A DNA stretch of 64,000 bases, from positions 496,001-560,000 of the forward strand of contig JAGTXK010000138.1 of NCBI GenBank assembly GCA_019096195.1, written 5' to 3'. The notes below the pieces were generated by a model that ran no database searches, was not told the DNA's origin, and saw only the letters and a program-made list of their open reading frames with translations. The first letter of the stretch is position 1. Each line of letters opens with the position of its first letter. This DNA is from Boletus sp. NGJ (Eukaryota > Basidiomycota > Agaricomycetes > Boletales > Boletaceae). Of this stretch, positions 51,099 through 63,515 are shown in pieces. The position numbers and the translations under genes were made by a program.

Positions 51099-51100
51099 TA

Positions 51101-51159
51101 TAGTGGTTTCCATAAGTATGTGGAAAATGCATTGAAGAAAGTCACGCCTCGGAGACAGC
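51101..51159 (+). repeat. left terminal inverted repeat of the DNA transposon
   Basis: Begins TAGTGGTTTCCATAAGTATG directly after a TA (51099-51100). It pairs without gaps with 63455-63513; the nine mismatches are all transitions. Confidence 0.85.
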
Positions 51160-51239
51160 TGCAGAAGGACTCTGGAAGTGGCTGACTGGGTAGCCTGCAG
51201 CTGAATAAGCATCGTTGATTTTGCAAGCCACCACCACTC

Positions 51240-51535
51240 ATGCCTGGATGCTGCCGCATTGTATCTCCTAACCTCAAAGCCCACATCCCCCTCTTGTATC
51301 ATGAAGACCATAGTGTCCAACAGATCTGTCACATATTGGGTGTCAAAAAGTCACTCGTTTACAAGACACTCTCTTGTACTCAAGATATGGGACTGTAGCA
51401 AACCTAAACAAGTACTCTTGTACTACCAGTTGCCCCCAAGTACTCACCTCAGCGGATGTTGCTCTTATCTCTACTGTTATTTAGTATTGGAGTACCATCT
51501 ACCTTGACAAGCTTCAAAGTGAGCTTTGGGCTAAG
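51240..51535 (+). pseudogene. DDE transposase, N-terminal part (split by LTR element)
   Basis: ATG at 51240 opens the helix-turn-helix DNA-binding region: PNLKAHIPLLYHEDHSVQQI followed by CHILGVKKSLVYKTLS. After a small frame change near 51390 the linker follows (TSADVALISTVI, a stop, then YLDKLQSELWAK). The frame then meets the LTR retrotransposon at the CTAAG duplication. The same frame resumes at 60908 beyond the LTR. Frame change and stop show decay in addition to the insertion. Confidence 0.7.
51531..51535 (+). repeat. target-site duplication CTAAG, left
   Basis: CTAAG directly before the left LTR; the identical five bases follow the right LTR at 60903-60907. Confidence 0.85.
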
Positions 51536-52508
51536 TGTTACGGTTACCGAAGGAGGTACATCTTTTCCCCTTCCTTCACCTCCTGTAGAACTATGGGACG
51601 ACCTATTCTTCGACTCAGACCAGGGATTCCCCCACGACACCAACTCTGGCATTGCCCCATCCGGAACCCCCCTTTTAGGAAGTTATTCGTAACTCCCTTT
51701 TTAGGAACCTATCCATTTGGTATGGACATCGCCTTCCTTATTTCACCTGATATATGCTTTCTTCCTTCTTGACCCGATCATAGATATTGCCTCCTCAGCT
51801 GTGCTCTCTCGTGCATAGCCTAGTATTCCTACCTTCCCATTCTGACTCATGCCTTGATCTGTTTATAGTAATCTTTCATCTGTGACTGACAATTACTATA
51901 TTCATTATGAAGCCTGCCCTCAACGAATAAGGCCTATAAATAGGGGTGTGGGCCCTTCATGTAACTCTAACCTAGATCTACACTCCTTCCTGTGTAATCT
52001 ACCTGCTTCTCCCACAAAGGTTCCACTTCACCTCAGAAGCCTTCTCTATGCTCTGGAGGTGATTGCCCTCGCGCTTGTGATCATCCTTCTCATCACTTCG
52101 CACTTGTGCGCCGTTGTTGCCGTTACAGGCTTCTAAAGCTTTGGCAACTCCAATGACCAACAGAGGTTGGTTGTCATTGGTCAGAACTCTGCCACTGACC
52201 CAGCAAGCCTGGGACTCTGCCACTGGCACTAGGCCATATAAGTCCAGAGAACTAGCTGACAGAAGGCAACTGTCTCTGGCCTTCGCATCCAGTCTGCCCA
52301 TCCTTCACGAAGGATCGCGCCACCATGGTAAATCCAAGACTTCGCCATTGGTCGTAGAGGTAACAAGAGGACTCTATGTAAAGCTAGCAGTTGGTCCCCA
52401 GTCAGAGGAAACCTTGGGCCTCTGGAGGTATATTCCCTCAAGTCCTGCTAGTCCTATAATCCAACAGGGGTTATACAGGAATGTGTCACATTGTTACCCG
52501 GCGTAACA
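51536..52508 (+). repeat. left LTR, 973 bp
   Basis: Starts TGTTACGGTTACC and ends GGCGTAACA (TG...CA with a TGTTAC/GTAACA short inverted repeat). It has a TATA box CTATAAATAGG at 51934-51944, which sets the transcription direction as plus. Compared with the right LTR it differs by scattered substitutions and one 28-bp gap only. Confidence 0.88.
51934..51944 (+). promoter_or_regulatory. TATA box in the left LTR
   Basis: CTATAAATAGG about 400 bp into the LTR, conserved in the two other LTR copies (right LTR near 60356-60366; inverted copy near 53250-53260). It marks the U3/R side and the LTR orientation. Confidence 0.55.
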
Positions 52509-52681
52509 CCCGTGATGATGTGGCTTCTTCTTCTCGATCTTCTCCTAGGAGACGGAAAAGGTTGATTCTGCACAGTACGTAGAGTGAGGGCCTATCCCTT
52601 GATAGGTGATTTTAATTCCTTGGAATGACAGTGGGAGTTGCTAGACTGAATAGTCTTCAGCAATTTATAACCTAGATCTTT
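52509..52681. other. 173-bp stretch between left LTR and inverted LTR
   Basis: This has no match to the rest of the element that I could find. It could be the first part of the original element's leader, left when a second copy landed here, or DNA from a rearrangement. It does not start with an obvious tRNA-primer site. Confidence 0.35.
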
Positions 52682-53660
52682 TGTTATGCTGGGTAACAAT
52701 GTGACACGTTCCTGTATAACCCCTGTTGGATTATAGGACTAGCAGGACTTGAGGGGAATATACCTCCAGAGGCCCAAGGTTTCCTCTGACTGGGGACCAA
52801 CTGCTAGCTTTACATAGAGTCCTCTTGTTACCTCTACGACCAATGGCGAAGTCTTGGATTTACCATGGTGGCGCGATCCTTCGTGAAGGATGGGCAGACT
52901 GGATGCGAAGGCCAGAGACAGTTGCCTTCTGTCAGCTAGTTCTTCTGGGCTTATATGGCCTAGTGCCAGTGGCAGAGTCCCAGGCTTGCTGGGTCAGTGG
53001 CGGAGTCCTGACCAATGACGACCAACCTCTGTTGGTCATTGGAGTTGCCGAAGCTTTAGAAGCCTGTAACGGCAACAACGGCGCACAAGTGTGAAGTGAT
53101 GAGAAGGATGATCACAAGCGCGAGGGCAATCACCTCCAGAGCATGGAGAAGGCTTCTGAGGTGAAGTGGAACCTTTGCGGGAGAAGCAGGTAGATTACAC
53201 AGGAAGGAGTGTAGATCTAGGTTAGAGTTACATGAAGGGCCCGCGCCCCTATTTATAGGCCTTGACCGTCTAGGGCAGGCTTCATAACGAATATAGTAAT
53301 TGTCAGTCACAGATGAAAGATTACTATAAACAGGATCAAGGCATGAGTCAGAATGGGAAGGTAGGAATACTAGGCTATGCACGAGAGAGCACAGCCGAGG
53401 AGGCAATGTCTATGATCGGGTCAAGAAGGAAGAAAGCATATATCAGGTGAAATAAGGGAGGCGAGTGTCCATACCAAACGGGTAGCTTCCTGAAAAGGGA
53501 GTTACGAATAACTTCCTAGAAAGGAGGGTTCCGGATGGGGCAATGCCTGAGTTGGTGTCGCTGGGGGAATCCCTGGTCCGAGTTGAAGAATAGGTCGTCC
53601 CATAGTCCTACAGGAGGTGAAGGAAGGGGAAAAGATGTACCCCCTTCGGTAACCATAACA
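52682..53660 (-). repeat. third LTR copy, inverted, 979 bp
   Basis: On the minus strand it begins TGTTATGGTTACC and ends CCAGCATAACA, full length. On that strand it is preceded by GAGGAGGGTAA, a plausible polypurine tract, and by the last internal reading frame. It therefore serves as the 3' LTR of the minus-strand gag-pol. Its sequence differs from the outer LTRs at scattered sites. Confidence 0.85.
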
Positions 53661-54800
53661 TTACCCTCCTCGTAGTCTTGAAGTTCCATCTCAAGAACTC
53701 CGATCTCCCTCATTCTCCTTGTAGTTGGTAAGGTCCCAAGAGTCATGTCGAAGACTCCCTGGCTGGGGCATCGTCTGGTAGCCGTGTCCTTCGTCCTCCC
53801 ACAGTATGTGCAAGTTCTTCGTGGGCAAGCATACTGTGGATGGTTGGGGGCAACCACCCTACAGTAGGGGCAATGGTACTGGGGGCAGGCGGGCTGAAGG
53901 TGACCTTGACGTCTGCATTCGTAGCAGCGGATGCCGGTGAGGGGAGCTCGATGGTTATGAGGCGATCTGGTGCCGGGCAGGGGATTGGGATGACTAGCCA
54001 TTGAGTCGGAATGGCTGGTAGGAGAGGCGCTCTGCGGCGGCCCCAGGAATGGGAACAGAGGAAGGAGTAGGGCTCCTCGTTGTAGAGTCCCCCAATGTGT
54101 GGAGAAGACCTCAGTCATTGGGGCGAGAGGGAAGGCCGACCGAGAACACCATGGCTCCTCGTCGGCGGAGGGTCCTGGTGGGTCGGGAAACAGCTGGGGG
54201 AGGAACTGGGAGGACTGGTATTGAGGAGGTTCCTCGGGAGGAGGGGTTGGGATTAGTGGAGGAAGGGGAGGCGACAACGGTGTCATCAGAGGACTGGGCT
54301 CTCTGTGTCTCTGGAGAGTCTCTATCAACTCCGTCAACGCTTCTGATTCCGTTGATGTTCTCCATGGGTCGCTCCGCCACAGAAGGGGATTCGTCTAGGG
54401 GGAACGGGGTAGGAGGGCGTGGTGGTTGACGAGGGGGCAAAGAAAACGCGACTTTCTTCTTCTGAGAGGGAGAGGATGGTGGGGTGGAGGAGGCGATCAC
54501 AGGTGTTGATGGGCAGAAGGGTGAGGGAATAGTTGAATCCCTCGATGAAAAGGAGGTTGAGAACAAGTTCGTGAATCTCGAGGATCCCTTCCGTTGCCCT
54601 TTCTTCTTCGGCGGTCTGTTGGGCATTGGAGTCATAGGGACCTGCCGAGTTCCCATAGGTCCGGGAGAGAAGGGATCGAAGTGAGGAGTAAGATCTATAG
54701 AGGGCGACGAGCTGGACGAGTGAGTCGTCGCAGGAGAAGAAGGGGATAGTCTGGAGGGTCCAGACTGCTGACGGGGTCATCAAGAATGGCGGCATAAAGG
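53625..54800 (-). pseudogene. retrotransposon third ORF with zinc-knuckle-like cysteines
   Basis: Downstream of the chromodomain on the minus strand, frames with changes near 54350 and 54650 encode a Ser/Pro-rich protein (PPLPPLIPTPPPEEPPQY). A cysteine cluster follows: CYECRRQGHLQPACPQYHCP, CRVVAPNHPQYACP and CTYCGRTKDTATRRCP. The first is CX2CX4HX4C, a gag-type zinc knuckle; the others are CCHC-like. The frame continues across the LTR border into TEGGTSFPLPSPP, so the C-terminus is encoded by the start of the LTR. A role in packaging or nucleic-acid binding is inferred only. Confidence 0.6.
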
Positions 54801-55029
54801 TTTCGGTGGTGGGCAGGGGGAGAGTCTGTTGAGGTGTACGGAAAGGGGGGCGAGAGTCATCTACCAGGTGTGATGATAGGGGCAGTAGTCAATCTGGCAG
54901 AAGCACCAGTGTTGTTCAATGTGTTTGGGGATGATGAGATCTGGGTATTGCTTCTGCAGGCAGGCTTGGGTGAGGGCAGCGGATACTGCGGGCAAGCAGA
55001 ATGAAGAGGGAGGTGTTATCTTGGGGCAT

Positions 55030-57830
55030 GGGCTCGTCTCAAAGTCTGAGTCGTCTTTTATACTCCAGGAGTATCTTCTTGGCGTTTCCAAGATTGGCCT
55101 CTAGGTTCCCAAGTTCATGTTCTGCTGCGGAATATCCCTTTCCAGTGTGTCAGGTACTGCCTTCTTCCCGGTTTTCCCTGATGGTTGATGATGCTGTCCA
55201 CTTTGTATTCCTCTTCAGTTCCGACAAGTTCCGGTGGTGGTTGAGTGAAATTGGGGCCGTGTTCTGTGGTCTCCCGATATGGGGAAAGTAGGGACGCGTG
55301 GAACACATTGTGGATCTTCCACTGTTTCGGCAAACTTGAGTCAGAATGCCACGGAGGACACCACTTGAGTAATTTCAAATGGTCCGGTCCGTTTTGGGGA
55401 TAGTTTTCGGGAGGGGACTTGGAGTTTTAGGTTCTTGGCGTCCAGCCATACCTTATCTCCGAGTTTCCAGGGTTTGAAGTGAGAGTGGACTCTCTCCTTC
55501 ATGCGTAGTTGTGCCAGTTTGTGTGCCGCTTCTGCTTCCTTTCTTGATTCTTCTAGGAAAGAGAGTCTCTCCTCCAGGGCTGGTAGGAAGGTTTTTCCGA
55601 TAGAAGGATATGCTCTTGGTTCATATCCAAGGATCAAGGAGAAGGGCGATTTTCCGGTGACCGAGTGGGTTGTAGAGTTGTGAGCGAACTCCGCCATGGG
55701 TAGTAATTCCAACCACTTCTGTGGTTGGCCATCGCAGAATATCTGTAGGTAGGTTTCTAGTTCTTGGTTATATCGTTCCGTTTCGCCATCCGTTTGTGGG
55801 TGGTAGGCCGTGGAAAGGGCGACGTCGTAGTTCAGGAGTCTAGCGAGCTCCTGAGCGAACGCGGATGCGAACTGTGGACCACGATCTGAAACCAATTTGT
55901 CATGTAAACCCGTACCGTAGGAAGACCTTTTTGAAGAAAAGACGGGCTATACCAGCCGCGTCCACCGTTTTTGTGCAAGGGGCGAGAATTACCCCCTTAC
56001 TAAGCCCATGGTCTACCACGACCATGACTGAATCAAAGCCCCCCACTGGGGGCAGGTCGGTGATCAAATCCACTGATAGATGTTGGAAAGGGCGGCGGCC
56101 CTCAAAGGCTAGGGGGGTGACCGGGGGAACCGTAGGGTGTGTCTGGACCTTGTTGCTCTGGCAGACGGCGCAACCAGCGACGAATTTGCGGACGAATGTA
56201 GTGAGTCCGGGCCACCAGTAGTCCTTGGCCAGGAGTTGAGTGGTGCGAAGGTGTCCGCCGTGTCCTCCCTTGAAAGAGGAATGGACGGAGGATACCAACT
56301 CCTGTCGGGCTGGGCCGGGGATGTACATCCGGTTTTTGAAGTAGAGGTTGCCATTGTCGAAGGTCCAGTCTTCCACTTTGGACCAGGTGAAGAGAGGTTC
56401 CCCTTGTCCCTACACATTCTAAGGCAGAGAGTACCAATGGATCTTTCTGGGCAGATCCCTTGATTTTCTCGGCCAACGCTAGGTCGATCATTTGCATACT
56501 TGATAGTCAAATGCATTAGATGGGAGGAGTTGCACATCTTCATTGTCCTTGGAAGTATCGATTTCGTCCCGATGAGATAAACGCGTCTGCGGGGGCCATT
56601 TTTGTTCCAGGTAGGGCTTGGTAGACCATATCATAGTCCTGGAGGAACAAAAGCCATCGTGCCTGTGTCGGGATAATTGCCGGGGTTCCTTGAAGAATGT
56701 CAGGTTCTTGTGGTCGGTCAACACTGTTACGGGGTGGGGGGATCCAAGAAGGTATTGCCGCCACTCTTTCAAACCTCGTATGACAGCCAGTAGTTCCCTG
56801 TCATAGATGTCGTAGTTTCTCTCAGCCGGAGAGAAAGTCTCAGAGAGATAGCCACATGGTTGCATGTCTCCGTTGTCGTTGTTTTGCATGAGTACCGCTC
56901 CTGACACCGTGAGCGAGGCATCCGTCATGAGAGTGAAGGGTTTTGAAGTATCTGGGAAGGCGAGGACGGGTTTCTTGGTGAATGCTGCCTGTAGGGTTCT
57001 GAATGATTTTTCTTGAAGTGATCCCCAGGACCAAGTCGTCGTTTGCTTTGTGAGGTCCAGCAAAGGATGTGCGATGTCGGAAAAGGAGGGGATGAACTTC
57101 CTGTAAAAATTACAGAATCCGATGAAGGACTGTACGTCCTTCACGTTCACCGGGAGGTTTCCATTGCTTGATGGCATTGAGCTTGACTGGGTCCATCTGG
57201 ACTCCGTCCTTCCCTATGATCATCCCAAGATATTCAACTTCTTTGGCTGAGAAGGTACACTTCTCCAGTTTGAGGTACATTTCATGCTGTCGGAAGCGTT
57301 CTAGGACCTTCCGTGTCCTCTCGTCGTGAGTTATCTGATCTGAAGAATGAATCAACAGATCGTCCATGTATATCACCAACCATCCCTCTGCTATATAATC
57401 TCCAAAGAGATCGTCCATGAATGCTTGGAATGTTGCTGGGGAATTGCACATTCCGAAGAACATGACATTTGGCTCAAATAGCCCGAATGGGGTGAGAAAA
57501 GCCACCTTCCACCGATCTTCAGGTTTGATCAAGACATTGTTGTAGCCCCATCGTATGTCGAATTTAGTGAAAATTGACGATCCCTTTAATTTGTCCAGGA
57601 GGTCGGAAATTAAGGGGAGAGGGTAGGCATTCTTGATCGTGTGGCTGTTAAGATACCGGTAGTCTTGGCAGGGGCGGAGTTTCCCATCTTTCTTCTGTAC
57701 AAAGAAGAAAGGAGCGGCCTGGGGAGATTTTGATGGCGATATCTTCCCAGTTTTGAGATGTTCGGTAATGAATTCCCGGCATGCCTGTTGTTCCAATGGG
57801 TTGAGAGGGTACGCCTTGGCTCATTTTCGG
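55030..57830 (-). pseudogene. retrotransposon pol: RT, RNase H, integrase, chromodomain
   Basis: Read on the minus strand. Reverse transcriptase about 57830-57110 with [31 protein letters not shown] and the YMDD catalytic box. RNase H about 56960-56700 with FTLMTDAS, YDIYDRELLAVIRGLKEWR and LTDHKNL. Integrase about 56330-55560 with the GGHGG.....LL..DYWWP zinc region, CAVCQSNK, HLSVDLITDLPP and SDRGPQFAS, then AYHPQTDGETERYNQ. The chromodomain is near 55150-55040 (WKGYSAAEHELGNLEANL), which places it among chromoviruses of the Ty3/Gypsy order. Frame changes near 57130, 56480, 55900 and 55360-55130 prevent a complete polyprotein. Confidence 0.85.
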
Positions 57831-58139
57831 AACAAACGAGTCCTTTAACTCGATGGCATGGTCGTATTGCCTAGAGGGAGGTAATTTGGTGATTGTCTTC
57901 TCCGTGAAGACGTCTTTCGTATTCTTTGAACGCATTCGGTAATACGCTCTTTGTCTTCTGTGCCTGTTGGGCGATCTCGGTAGACAGAGTGGTCCTCTTG
58001 ATGACAAACTCTGGTACATCCCCATGTGCATTGAAGAACTTGGCCCGTTGCAAGGGCGTCCAGTGGCGAAAGGTCTCGTAGAGTCCGTCTTGCACGTACT
58101 CCCTTTCGTCGTGTTCCAGATACCTTAGCAGGTATTGCT

Positions 58140-58660
58140 GTTCAAGTGTTCCCGGTGGATCGCCTTGAGTCCACCGATAGGAAGACAGTACTATTGTTAT
58201 CCTGTCCTTCCGTCCAGTTGATATCAGGGTTCACTGCCCTGAGCCATGGAAGTCCTAAGATGACTTCGTCCTTGCCACAATTGAGGACATAGAGATCCCG
58301 CTGTTCTCGTATGCCTCCGTAGTCCAACATGACGTTGGTCCTTTCCTTGATGGTTCCAGACTGGTTTTGGGTTCCATCTACGTTCCAGGCTCGGACCGGA
58401 TTGTCCAGCTTCCATGTGGGTAACCCCATCTTCTCCACCGCGTGTCTTGAGATGAAGCATCCTGTTGCTCCACTGTCGATTAAGGCTTTTGTTCCAACGA
58501 TTTTGCCATCCTGCTTCCAGATCGAGAGAGGAATGTGAATAGAATTACTCTTCGATCCAGAAATAAATACAGGGGCAATCGTGTAGGAAGAGGGTGACGT
58601 TGGTACATCTCTTCCACCTAAAAAGACGTTTGGTCCATGGGAGAAGGGGGAATTTGCATA
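58140..58660 (-). pseudogene. retrotransposon aspartic protease
   Basis: The minus-strand frame carries the retropepsin motif ALIDSGATGCFISRHAVEKM and the second conserved block EVILGLPWLRAVNPDINW. It lies between gag and RT and is linked to both through frame changes. It would cleave the polyprotein in an active element. Confidence 0.75.
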
Positions 58661-58689
58661 GCAGGTCCTAGGGCAAGAGAGTTGACATT

Positions 58690-59957
58690 CTCTTCCCATT
58701 CTATTGCGGCAGCTTCTTGTACTCGTTCCAAAACGAGTCCCTGCTCGTCCAGCCCCGTGTCGAAGGCTGTCTGGAGCGTTCTGAGAACTTTGTCTCGTCC
58801 GTTGTTTCTGGCGACTTCTGCGAGATACTTGTCGAGGGGATCCTGTGGCGTTTCTTGCAGTTGACGACCACCCTAGTGTGCGTCTCCTGTGGTTTCCTCT
58901 GTTCCTCTCTCCTAACTGGCCGATACCCTGGGTGGTTCTTGGTACTGCACCCAATCTTGTTGCAGATGAAGCATCTTCGCTCTCTCATCCGCTTGGCCCG
59001 TTCGATAGGAGACAAGGTGATCCGAGCCACGTCCATCGCGTTCGGATCGTGGTGATTTCCTGCGGCCTCTTCCAAAGGACGCAAAGGGTCCTTTCTGTAT
59101 TCCTTCAATTCGTTGCCATGCCCCGTGGATGTTGGCAGCTACTTTGTAGACCTCTTCCATCTTCTTGGCTTTCTGGAAGGTCTCACTGTTGACCAGCTGC
59201 TGGGCAATGTTTGGATCGATCCCCCTGAGGAAGAATTCGAGGATAGAGCGGAATTCTTGTAGGTCAGAGCGAACCACCAGCAAGGAGAACTGGGAAATGA
59301 ATCTGTCGAATCCCTTTGGGTCTCGTGTGTATCTTGTCGGAGGGACCCTAGTTCTGCCATTGCTAGGTTGCTGGTGTTGTGGGGGGTGAAGGTGAGGGCG
59401 AAGGCTTACTTGATTTCGTTATAGGACTTGTCTGCGAGTGGCACGGTGTCGTCGAGTAGCCTGGTCAGCCAGGCTTCTGCAAACGCTTTTCCTCTTCCCT
59501 TGGACATCCTGGTTCAATAGGATTAGCCTCTTGGCCTCCTCAGTGAACTTCTCTGCGCCTCCTAGATGGAAGTATCCTTCCATAGCCATGAGCCATCTCT
59601 TGGCATCATTTGTCTCCCCTGAGAACTCCTCAGGCAGGGCAGCTTTAATTTCAACCATATCGTCTTCGTCGTCTGTGTCTTCTTCGGGGCGGGGAATTTC
59701 CTGGATCGGGATTGGGACTAGATCTTCCGCTTGGGAAAAGGGGGTCGGGGGAGTCTACTCGGATGGGAACCGGTTGGAACGCTGGCAGTGGGGTGGGAGC
59801 GTCCGATGGGGTCAAGGTTCGAGAGCGGAGACCACCTGGAAAATCTGGTCATCTGGGCTGTTCTGGAAATGCGCGGGCGGGAGGGTCGTTGTAATGGGAT
59901 GATGACCCTGGGATCCTTCTTGATGAAGACGTATCGGAGATAGGAGTAGAAGCCCAT
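58690..59957 (-). pseudogene. retrotransposon gag
   Basis: The minus-strand frame begins near the right LTR. A capsid-like region reads EFSGETNDAKRWLMAMEGYF and AEKFTEEAKRLILLNQ. After a frame change near 59500 comes FILEFFLRGIDP-like sequence with QQLVNSETFQKAKKMEE. A single zinc knuckle follows as CFICNKIGCSTKNHPGY (CX2CX8C-type, irregular). At least three frame changes. The first 300 bases next to the LTR contain a plausible leader or early gag start (MGFYSYLRYVFIKKDPRV). Confidence 0.65.
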
Positions 59958-60902
59958 TGTTACGGTTACCGAAGAGGGTACATCTTTTCCCCTTCCTTCA
60001 CCTCCCGTAGAACTATGGGACGACCTATTCTTTGACTCAGACCAGGGATTCCTCCACGACACCAACTCTGGCATTGCCCCATCCAGAACCCCCCTTTTAG
60101 GAAGTTATTCGTAACTCCCTTTTTAGGAACCTACCCATTTGGTATAGACATCGCCTCCCTTATTTCACCTGATATATGCTTTCTTCCTTCTTGACCTGAT
60201 CATAGACATTGCCTCCTCGGCTGTGCTCTCTCGTGCATAGCCTAGTATTCCTACCTTCCCATTCTGACTCATGCCTTGATCTGTTTATAGTAATCTTTCA
60301 TCTGTGACTGACAATTACTATATTCGTTATAAAGCCTGCCCTAGACAGGTAAGGCCTATAAATAGGGGTGTGGGCCCTTCATGTAACTCTAACCTAGATC
60401 TACACTCCTTCCTGTGTAATCTACCTGCTTCTCCCACAAAGGTTCCACTTCACCTCAGAAGCCTTCTCTACGCTCTGGAGGTGATCGCCCTCATACTTGT
60501 GATCATCCTTCTCATCACTTCGCACTTGTGTGCCGTCATTGCTGTTACAGGCTTCTAAAGCTTCGACAACTCCAATGACCAACAGAGGTTGATTGTCATT
60601 GGTCAGGACTCTGCCACTGGCACTAGGCCATATAAGTCCAGAGAACTAGCTGACAGAAGGCAACTGTCTCTGGCCTTCGCATCCGGTCTGCCCATCCTTC
60701 ACAAAGGATCACACCACCGTGGTAAATCCAAGACTCCGCCATTGGTCGTAGAGGTAACGAGAGGACTCTACGTAAAGCTAGCAGTTGGTCCCCAGTCAGA
60801 GGAAACCTTGGGCCTCTGGAGGTATATTCCCTCAAGTCCTGCTAGTCCTATAATCCAACAGGGGTTATATGGGAACGTGTCACATTGTTACCTGGTGTAA
60901 CA
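59958..60902 (+). repeat. right LTR, 945 bp
   Basis: Starts TGTTACGGTTACC and ends CTGGTGTAACA, in the same orientation as the left LTR. It lacks 28 bp present in the left LTR between two copies of ACTCTGCCACTG, which explains the whole length difference. It is followed by CTAAG. Confidence 0.88.
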
Positions 60903-60907
60903 CTAAG
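60903..60907 (+). repeat. target-site duplication CTAAG, right
   Basis: Exact repeat of 51531-51535, directly after the right LTR. Confidence 0.85.
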
Positions 60908-61656
60908 CATCATAAGTACATTACATTCTCTATCCTTCTTCAAATGCTCCAGCGGCTTTCCATCACCCGGAAGGTTGTTTCCTCTTCTACTGTGGAGTGG
61001 AATGAAGAGACACATGCAATTTACATGAACTGCATTGCTGCAGAAGCACCAGATCCAAATATGCTTGTTTTTATTGACGAAGCTGCCAAGGATAAATGAA
61101 TGTCCACCTGCCAATATGGATGGTCAACAAGAGGAGTTCGTTGCCATGTCAAGAGGGGCTTTATATGTGGCACAAGATTTTCTATCATTCCTGCCATCAC
61201 ATATGATATTGTTGAGGGACCAGTTGACGGTAAGCGTTTTTTGAGTTTTTTGAATGAACATGTGGTGCATTGTTTATATTTCTATATATATTTCATCAAT
61301 ACATTTTTGCTACAGATGCCATTCACCAATCCATATCTGGGTCCCCACAGTGTACTCGTCATGGACAATTGTCACATCCACCATGGTGAGGAGGTCCATG
61401 CACTGATCAAAGACATGCATTGTACGTCATCAACACATCGTTCTTCACATACTAACCACCATTAGTTTGCAAACTCATTTTCCTCCCTTCTTACTCCCCT
61501 GATTACAATCCCATTGAGCAAGCCTTCTTTGCTATCAAGGTGTATTTTCGGCACCACCGTGATGACTTCTCAATGACCGTGATTGCTTGTGCTTGTCAGA
61601 ACATCATTCCTGACAAAGCAGAAGGTTATTTTAGGGCATCGGGTTACATTGTGTAG
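60908..61656 (+). pseudogene. DDE transposase, C-terminal catalytic part
   Basis: Picks up the frame broken at 51535: HHKYITFSILLQMLQRLSIT, then the catalytic region. The first Asp lies in MLVFIDEAAKD, the second in SVLVMDNCHIHHGEEV, and the last acidic residue in FLPSYSPDYNPIEQAFFAIK. This is the DDE_3 (Tc1/IS630) endonuclease. Two introns fit (about 61230-61315 and 61421-61465). A TGA directly after IDEAAKDK breaks the frame. The protein ends with EGYFRASGYIV and TAG at 61654-61656. Confidence 0.8.
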
Positions 61657-61853
61657 TTGAAATGGACTTAGAACTGTTGTAATCAACTGTTATCTGATCA
61701 AACAGAGTCATCAGAGTGATAGCATTGTGTTCGAACGTTGAACCAGATGCTAAGTGACGTGGAAATACTGGCAATATTGTCCTAGTTATTGAAAAAGCCA
61801 CCCTCATCCTCCTTGGCATCCTTGCAAACAATAAATCCCTTTGGAACTGGAAG

Positions 61854-63250
61854 TCAAATGCCATGATCTGTTGCCTGGTACCAGAGATCATAGTCCCTTG
61901 GTCCATCATCATCACCAGGTATCATTGGGAATGCAGTAAAGCGGCAGCTGCCGCCATCATGATACTTCTTCTCGTAGGCGATCTTTTTCTGGAGTGGATG
62001 GGTAGGTGACCTTGACTTGCTTGTCAAGCTTTGATCAGTATTGCTATGCTTCTGCTTCGCATTGGGACCATTCCACCAAACTGTACAACCCTTTTTCAGA
62101 CGGATGATATTGCCAGTTGGAATTCCAATGTCCAAAAGCGTCTTATCACTGATTTCGGAGAGGATATCTGGCCCAATGTGTTGTGTGGTGAGTTTGCGCT
62201 CATATGTAGTAGCATTAGAAACACTGAGATTAGTTTCCACATATTTGAGAAAGCATGAAAGCTGGGATGGGGACAGAAATGGAGGCAGGACTGATTTTTC
62301 TGAGACATTACGAGTGGGTGTAGTTGGAACTGGAGCAGATTGGCTATTTGACCCAGACTGAGGAAGCAGATTAGCTAGCATCTGAAGGACAAGAACCAAT
62401 GTAAGTGAGTTGACATTTGATGGCCCAGGTCCAGGGTTCGGAGATGGTAGTGGCTATGGAGGTGTCTGCACATGTGCCTTGAGCTGGATGTAGGAATGGT
62501 GCCTTGTTGGCAATATTGAATGAAGGAATGTTGGGTGGCATATGCAATGTGGCCTGTTCTGCCTCCTATGAGCTGATTAGAATTTTTTTGATGCAATATT
62601 ATAGAGTTATACCAGAGCATGAGCCCAGTCGAGTACCATAGCAGGAGTAAGTGGGATGGTAACACCTGACGGTCTGATATATGTAAGACCTTTGTCATGC
62701 TCATTCTTGTACATTTTTGCAAGTTTCAGGCGCCATTAAGCAAGGCGCGCATCAAGATCTGATACAGTTCGGGACGGAATCTTAGTCTTATTCGAAAATT
62801 ACATTATTAGACCATTCAATCATTGAAATGAAAGGAAATACCTGGTTCTTGTCTGATGCACCTGATTCTTCATCTCCAGCATTGGTGTCAGCTTGATACA
62901 AGGGGAGTTTCTCTACATGTTTCATATCAATGAGTATCTTTGTCATGCCAGAGTCTCCAACGGTGTCAACAATCTTGTCAACCATTTCCTTGTAGTCTGA
63001 CTCATTGTCTACATCCATTGCCTCACTTGTGCACTGGCTAGATAAATTTTCGTAAGACCAGACAACTAAAAATGTGGAAAGTCAAACCTCTTCGTCTTTG
63101 GTACAATGTACTTGAATGAAAAGTGCTGCTTGCCAGAGATCTTGTACTGGGCTTTTCCATATTTCTTGAGCATGCTTTCCAAGAATTCAATATAGTTAGT
63201 CTCGTTGAGTGGAAAAAGTAGTTTCTTAGTTTTTATGGATTTTTCTTGTC
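61854..63250 (-). pseudogene. transposon companion gene with SAM-like domain, degenerate
   Basis: Minus strand, convergent with the transposase and inside the same inverted repeats. Exons read NETNYIEFLESMLKKYGKAQ, QHFSFKYIVPKTKR, MVDKIVDTVGDSGMTKILID, then LKLAKMYKNEHDKGLTYIRP and SGVTIPLTPAMVLDWAHAL. PNIPSFNIANKAPFLHP follows and, in the last exon, a SAM-like fold (LTTQHIGPDILSEISDKTLL, IGIPTGNIIRLKKGC) with a basic tail. Proteins of this layout are frequent as hypothetical genes in agaricomycetes. In-frame stops occur near the N-terminus, before WRLKLAK, and where the C-terminus should continue (LPVPKGFIVCKDAK), so it is inactive. Function unknown. Confidence 0.65.
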
Positions 63251-63454
63251 ACTTGGCAGTAGCTCTGGCCTTAGATGACTGCTTGAGTGTTGAATAGACA
63301 GTAAGGGCTACTGCAAAGGCATACTGCCTCTCCGCAGATTAAGCTCCCAGGCCTGGTTGCTCAGACACGTGAGTAATGTAGGTACGTGGTACAAATTTGA
63401 CCCAACATCTACACTATGGGTTGCTTACTCAGCTGTGCCTGGGGTCCTTATGTG

Positions 63455-63513
63455 GCTGTCTCCAAAACATGATTTTTTTCGATGTATTTTCCACATACTT
63501 ATGGAAACCACTG
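63455..63513 (-). repeat. right terminal inverted repeat of the DNA transposon
   Basis: The reverse complement begins CAGTGGTTTCCATAAGTATG and runs collinear with the left repeat for 59 bp; TA follows at 63514-63515. Confidence 0.85.
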
Positions 63514-63515
63514 TA

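Follow-up and report, generated by a model that had tools for sequence, protein, structure and literature searches.

Tc1/mariner transposases are textbook one-protein systems, hence their use as genetic tools. A locus in the bolete Boletus sp. NGJ (GCA_019096195.1, contig JAGTXK010000138.1, positions 496,001 to 560,000; this 64,000-nucleotide stretch is referred to as the window) raises the question of whether such a transposase can travel with a second gene. At window positions 51,101 to 63,513, a DDE transposase gene and a convergent gene, which we call the companion, lie between one pair of terminal inverted repeats (TIRs). This interval is a single transposon, decayed and split by a 9.4-kb Ty3/gypsy-type element. 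On balance we favor reading it as one member of a cut-and-paste family in the IS630-Tc1-mariner group that carries two genes, with the companion most likely a second transposition protein. Gene order was read in one fungal genome, that of the host (G000, 32.8 Mb); other species are known from proteins alone.

Transposase and companion recur as a pair between TIRs

Searching the host genome with the companion yielded 53 matches, grouped into 33 loci, and the transposase gave 60, grouped into 45; the end motif, allowing up to three mismatches, matched 15 times. A convergent transposase lies within 12 kb of the companion at 26 of the 33 companion loci, with one on the same strand at a single locus and none at six. 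Re-checking these six uncovered a convergent transposase piece at two (C107 and C114:4198), and a third, C127:122932, seems from its position and frame to continue into the neighboring companion locus of an interrupted element. By comparison, at most 2 of 33 companion loci were paired within 2.5 kb in 2000 trials of random placement.

Both ends and both genes are present in 14 copies: the window copy, two copies each on C79, C22 and C114, and one each on C21, C75, C3, C122, C77, C38 and C1. The companion is present in 14 of 14 copies with both ends. The proposal of a two-gene transposon family made in the initial annotation, which was based on the window sequence alone, is supported by copies of about 3 kb with a constant convergent gene order. 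Several complete copies, C21 among them, hold insertions. Complete and single-ended copies together comprise at least five end types with a common gene layout, and the inverted ends are mostly ~70–150 bp long. C3 is probably a young copy, given 98% identity between its two ends over 96 bp.

The flanks of the two C79 copies (L009, ~10.5–14.8 kb, and L010, ~51.0–55.3 kb) match each other in reverse. The copies thus form an inverted segmental duplication and are counted as one insertion. A lone, well-kept end of the window's end type stands at L012 3563 (G000:C35:359062), with no second end and no match to either gene in the 7.5 kb read.

The element targets TTAA and duplicates TA

TTA directly precedes all 28 ends of the 14 complete copies. 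We joined the flanks of 11 copies without the element (nine two-gene and two deleted) and searched them against the host genome, finding uninterrupted relatives of the insertion site for three copies, C75, C77 and C22 (1.736 Mb), with 12 sites aligned. TTAA was read at five of five sites for C77, two of which look identical to each other, at four of five for C22, and at neither of the two for C75. The filled site TTA-element-TAA thus corresponds to an uninterrupted TTAA at 9 of 12 sites, and TA is therefore duplicated within a TTAA target. The initial annotation had looked to TA duplications for support, and these paralogous sites supply it.

The right flank of the C79 copy L009 and the left flank of L011 have the 12 bases CTGATGACTTTA in common, and the DNA beyond seems different; this may be target preference or coincidence.

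Deleted forms retain parts of both genes and have moved

Nineteen transposase loci have no companion match, and the sequences of 12 of them were read. Seven of the 12 (C38:23254, C141, C31, C22:172009, C56:58812, C104 and C118) carry internal deletions; in each, the beginning of the transposase gene survives at one end and that of the companion gene at the opposite end. Both ends are seen in five of these seven, which span 0.83–1.03 kb, and TTA stands before 9 of these 10 ends. One deletion is common to C38 and C141 and another to C22 and C56, at unrelated flanks; the deleted forms therefore moved. No second end was found in the fetched stretches of C35, C50, C91, C97 and C126:79430. The initial annotation had named the same ends around a transposase alone as evidence against a two-gene family; no such two-ended copy occurred among the 12 loci read of the 19. 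The host genome thus holds one mobile unit with two genes, a TTAA target, TA duplication and mobile deleted forms.

L049 (G000:C35) and L050 (G000:C50) have matching truncations, with identical end, flank and transposase match, and short repeats in the companion's place. The pair is, judging from these matches, a duplicated broken element.

The two genes share much of their history

We aligned 22 copies and used 16 in trees and substitution ratios, omitting C79b, C71b, C114c, C107, C56 and C65 as duplicate or partial. Protein distances of companion and transposase are strongly correlated (Mantel r = 0.914; 0 of 9999 permutations as high), and FastTree trees of the two genes agree on the subfamilies, with 7 of 13 splits in common. 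Median ratios of nonsynonymous to synonymous substitution (dN/dS, Nei-Gojobori type; 120 pairs, with finite dS in 96 for the companion and 91 for the transposase) are 0.21 for the companion and 0.16 for the transposase, both rough values given that dS between subfamilies is near saturation. Both genes thus seem conserved across subfamilies with a largely congruent history, which favors, without proving, a function of the companion for the element. The two genes have moved and evolved together, which points to a Tc1/mariner variant that operates with two proteins rather than one.

Copies from different subfamilies repeatedly have in-frame stops at matching codons of the alignment, perhaps as a result of C-to-T change at CpG sites.

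The transposase is a DD35E enzyme of the DDE_3 family

The initial annotation's assignment of the transposase to DDE_3 holds for the sister copy C21, whose exons match the family with E values of 3.7e-6 and 2.6e-5, each just below the Pfam cut-off because the match is split over exons. Four of six scanned relatives exceed the cut-off, P0068 and P0077 scoring 103 bits, and the other two (P0067 and P0091) have no DDE_3 match. The catalytic triad is DD35E, with 35 residues from the second D to the E in a mixed query and, concurring, in a hand count on P0068; 6 of 16 copies retain the complete triad. N-terminal HTH_23 matches are present below the cut-off. Among the named relatives are a "Tc1-mariner class transposase" of Mycena venus, with 50% identity, and proteins from Collybiopsis, Armillaria and, within the boletes, Tylopilus.

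The companion is modeled with PB1-like and SAM-like domains

PB1 domains carry a conserved lysine and acidic contact residues, and PB1 and SAM domains are head-to-tail assembly modules in other proteins. In structural models the companion seems to combine a PB1-like domain, with a PB1-type beta-grasp fold, and a SAM-like domain with the five helices of that fold; the aligned companion sequences share an acidic stretch around DVDN. The modeled folds are like the PB1 domains of Par6/aPKC, Cdc24 and NBR1 and the SAM domains of the polymer-forming proteins tankyrase and SARM1. The companion differs from these in being transposon-encoded, with ~8–25% identity in the aligned parts and a remainder that is unlike them or unmatched. 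The top Foldseek row for the whole protein is a staphylococcal superantigen-like protein, also a beta-grasp. No fold was recognized for the middle (~170–225) or the C-terminal beta region, a weak negative since PB1 and SAM matches filled the results.

Pfam gave no family above its cut-off for companion pieces or for the first member of a 43-sequence set. Across all 43 members, ten families appear at E up to 1, each in one to three members and mostly without pattern; none of the 43 has a Myb/SANT-like match, and the Pfam scans recognized no DNA-modification or chromatin domain in the companion. Full-length companion-like proteins occur in many Boletales, and intact companion genes are plentiful in Boletales genomes. 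The expectation that relatives would appear as hypothetical proteins proved right; the named ones found all belong to Boletales genera, a narrower range than the agaricomycete-wide scatter first given. Many "hypothetical proteins" of Boletales are probably transposon genes. No companion relatives were found in the scanned viral contigs.

What the companion may do

The DD35E transposase would bind the ends and cut and join DNA, as its Tc1/mariner relatives do. The companion most likely acts with it in trans as a second transposition protein, for example holding transposases and both ends together or carrying the transposase to the nucleus or the target. A tentative extension, somewhat less likely than not, is a Tc1/mariner lineage of Boletales with an obligate pair of proteins, in which the transposase needs the PB1-SAM protein to polymerize head to tail and so build or position the two-end complex. 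PB1 and SAM folds side by side in one transposon protein would be a new use of assembly modules. With a second protein retained across several subfamilies, the question of whether a Tc1/mariner transposase may become dependent on a partner can be put to the test.

Several observations weigh against a shared role in transposition. Three of the 33 companion loci still have no transposase piece: C126:54141, examined directly, and C114:22709 and C44:439301, judged from the genome-wide transposase search only. The initial annotation had also named companions lying regularly far from any transposase as contrary evidence, a pattern we did not find, yet these three remain unpaired, and at one further locus of the 33 transposase and companion share a strand. 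Stops interrupt at least one of the two genes in all 17 copies compared. Besides the roughness of the dN/dS ratios, pN/pS in young pairs is 0.44–0.85, as expected for decaying copies, and the tree splits that are not shared concern chiefly a single young group and the deep nodes. Evidence for the folds is modest, with a predicted template modeling score (pTM) of 0.38 for the companion model and nothing with E < 0.001 for the companion in Foldseek. Finally, no companion was found for the Agaricales relatives of the transposase, in a search that is perhaps too weak, and the transposase lineage may be able to do without one.

The main competing explanation, which we consider rather unlikely, is that the companion is a regulator or counter-defense protein that lifts silencing or tunes element expression but has no hand in the cutting and joining of DNA. 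Among plant transposons, VANDAL elements offer a precedent for a companion of this kind in their VANC protein. Pairing, complete copies and joint evolution fit this explanation as well as they fit a transposition protein, and the stops at recurrent aligned codons fit a heavily mutated, silenced repeat, in which such a protein would pay. Against it, the folds that are recognized are assembly modules, and the Pfam scans recognized no DNA-modification or chromatin domain. Cargo, meaning a host gene trapped between the ends and either useful to the host or neutral, is an improbable role for the companion, even though Boletales genomes hold so many intact companion genes and C3 has an open companion frame beside a broken transposase: subfamilies are congruent in both genes, every two-ended copy has both, and no host-type relative outside a transposon context was recognized in the one genome whose context was read. 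That a transposase and a gene unrelated to it happen by chance to be neighbors between coincidental repeats, a reading for which the window copy by itself leaves room, has next to no probability and is refuted by the repeated end-bounded gene pairs, the uninterrupted sites and the joint deletion derivatives.

Comparison with known two-gene and multi-gene transposons

The bolete family resembles Tc1/mariner elements in its DDE_3 transposase, in ends that start CAG(T/C)G and in its TA duplication, and differs from them in its second conserved gene, its length of ~3 kb, its DD35E triad and its strong TTAA context. The same genome offers a one-gene contrast. Among its DDE_3 matches of other Tc1-like families, of which 150 of 410 candidates were scored, two have a companion locus within 5 kb: one is nested in a companion gene (C44), and the other stands outside the element (C122). 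At L074 680–2256 (G000:C22:1661379–1662955) stands a DD34E element (hand count) ~1.57 kb long, flanked by TA, in which a frame of 350 codons is open. We set aside an identity of the bolete family with one-gene Tc1 elements, given the contrast with this single-gene copy. Many open frames similar to it occur in the host genome, and this DD34E family may have been recently active.

PIF/Harbinger elements make a 3-bp direct duplication, TTA or TAA. The bolete family has another transposase family and another partner, and its TA duplication (TTA...TAA when filled against TTAA uninterrupted) rules out a PIF/Harbinger identity. PIF/Harbinger is like the bolete family in having two genes with congruent trees, the transposase and a Myb-like partner responsible for transposase import and for binding to the ends (PMC9179366). 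MuDR and Mutyl also carry a transposase and a second gene, antisense in Mutyl, with duplications of 9–10 bp (PMC6446971); they belong to another superfamily, and the bolete duplication is the shorter TA. Harbinger and MuDR/Mutyl are precedents that second proteins can be needed (PMC9179366, PMC6446971).

Tc1 and mariner have a single open reading frame (ORF) and a length of ~1.3 kb (PMC7325037). The bolete family departs from this single-ORF trait, which is typical of Tc1 and mariner and does not define the superfamily, since the ciliate TBE and Tec elements of the Tc1/mariner group have three ORFs and a DD34E transposase (PMC7325037). TBE and Tec are thus alike in having more than one gene; their companions are a zinc-finger protein or a site-specific recombinase, and the section on them mentions no PB1 or SAM protein (PMC7325037). 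Among the open-licence PMC matches listed, no title or opening of an abstract describes this element; an earlier description is possible, Repbase being outside the scope. Within the literature covered, the proposed division of labor between a transposase and a PB1-SAM protein would be new for the superfamily outside ciliates.

The window copy

Re-measurement of the window copy's ends reproduced the annotated 59-bp repeats exactly (50 of 59 identical, gapless), and identity is 83% over 70 bp. The annotated TA was read directly at both flanks (TTA-TAGTGG...CCACTG-TAA). The 26-base end core occurs at only two sites in the window, both of them the ends, and in 0 of 100 shuffles. The genes are convergent, 134 bp apart by their alignment ends rather than the 200 bp first given. 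The companion is multi-exon with a SAM-like fold in the model towards its C-terminus, as annotated, and aligns to a Boletus edulis protein over 482 of 485 positions. Both genes contain in-frame stops. The large Ty3/gypsy-type insertion inside the transposase was absent from the earlier description; without it, the transposon is ~3.05 kb of 12.4 kb.

Features of the window copy (window coordinates; LTR, long terminal repeat; HTH, helix-turn-helix)
Feature	Position	Strand	Basis or remark
TA target duplication, left	51099..51100	.	TA duplication itself seen at sister copies via uninterrupted sites
Left TIR, transposase side	51101..51170	+	
Transposase gene part 1 (HTH region), up to LTR element	51252..51535	+	tblastn; one alignment extends into LTR to 51596
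5-bp duplication CTAAG of LTR element, left copy	51531..51535	.	
Ty3/gypsy-type LTR retroelement within transposase gene	51536..60902	.	coding frames on -
5-bp duplication CTAAG of LTR element, right copy	60903..60907	.	
Transposase gene remainder (DDE_3 catalytic part, DD35E), introns	60908..61653	+	family assigned on sister copy C21
Companion gene (introns present), PB1-like at its N-terminus, SAM-like domain toward its C-terminus	61788..63368	-	alignment to P0022 and modeled folds
Companion alignment blocks	63368-63090, 63027-62827, 62771-61788	-	versus P0022
Right TIR, companion side	63444..63513	-	
TA target duplication, right	63514..63515	.	

The outer LTR copies of the inserted element (51536–52508 and 59958–60902) have the same orientation, and a third, inverted copy lies near 52682–53660; the element is rearranged or nested.

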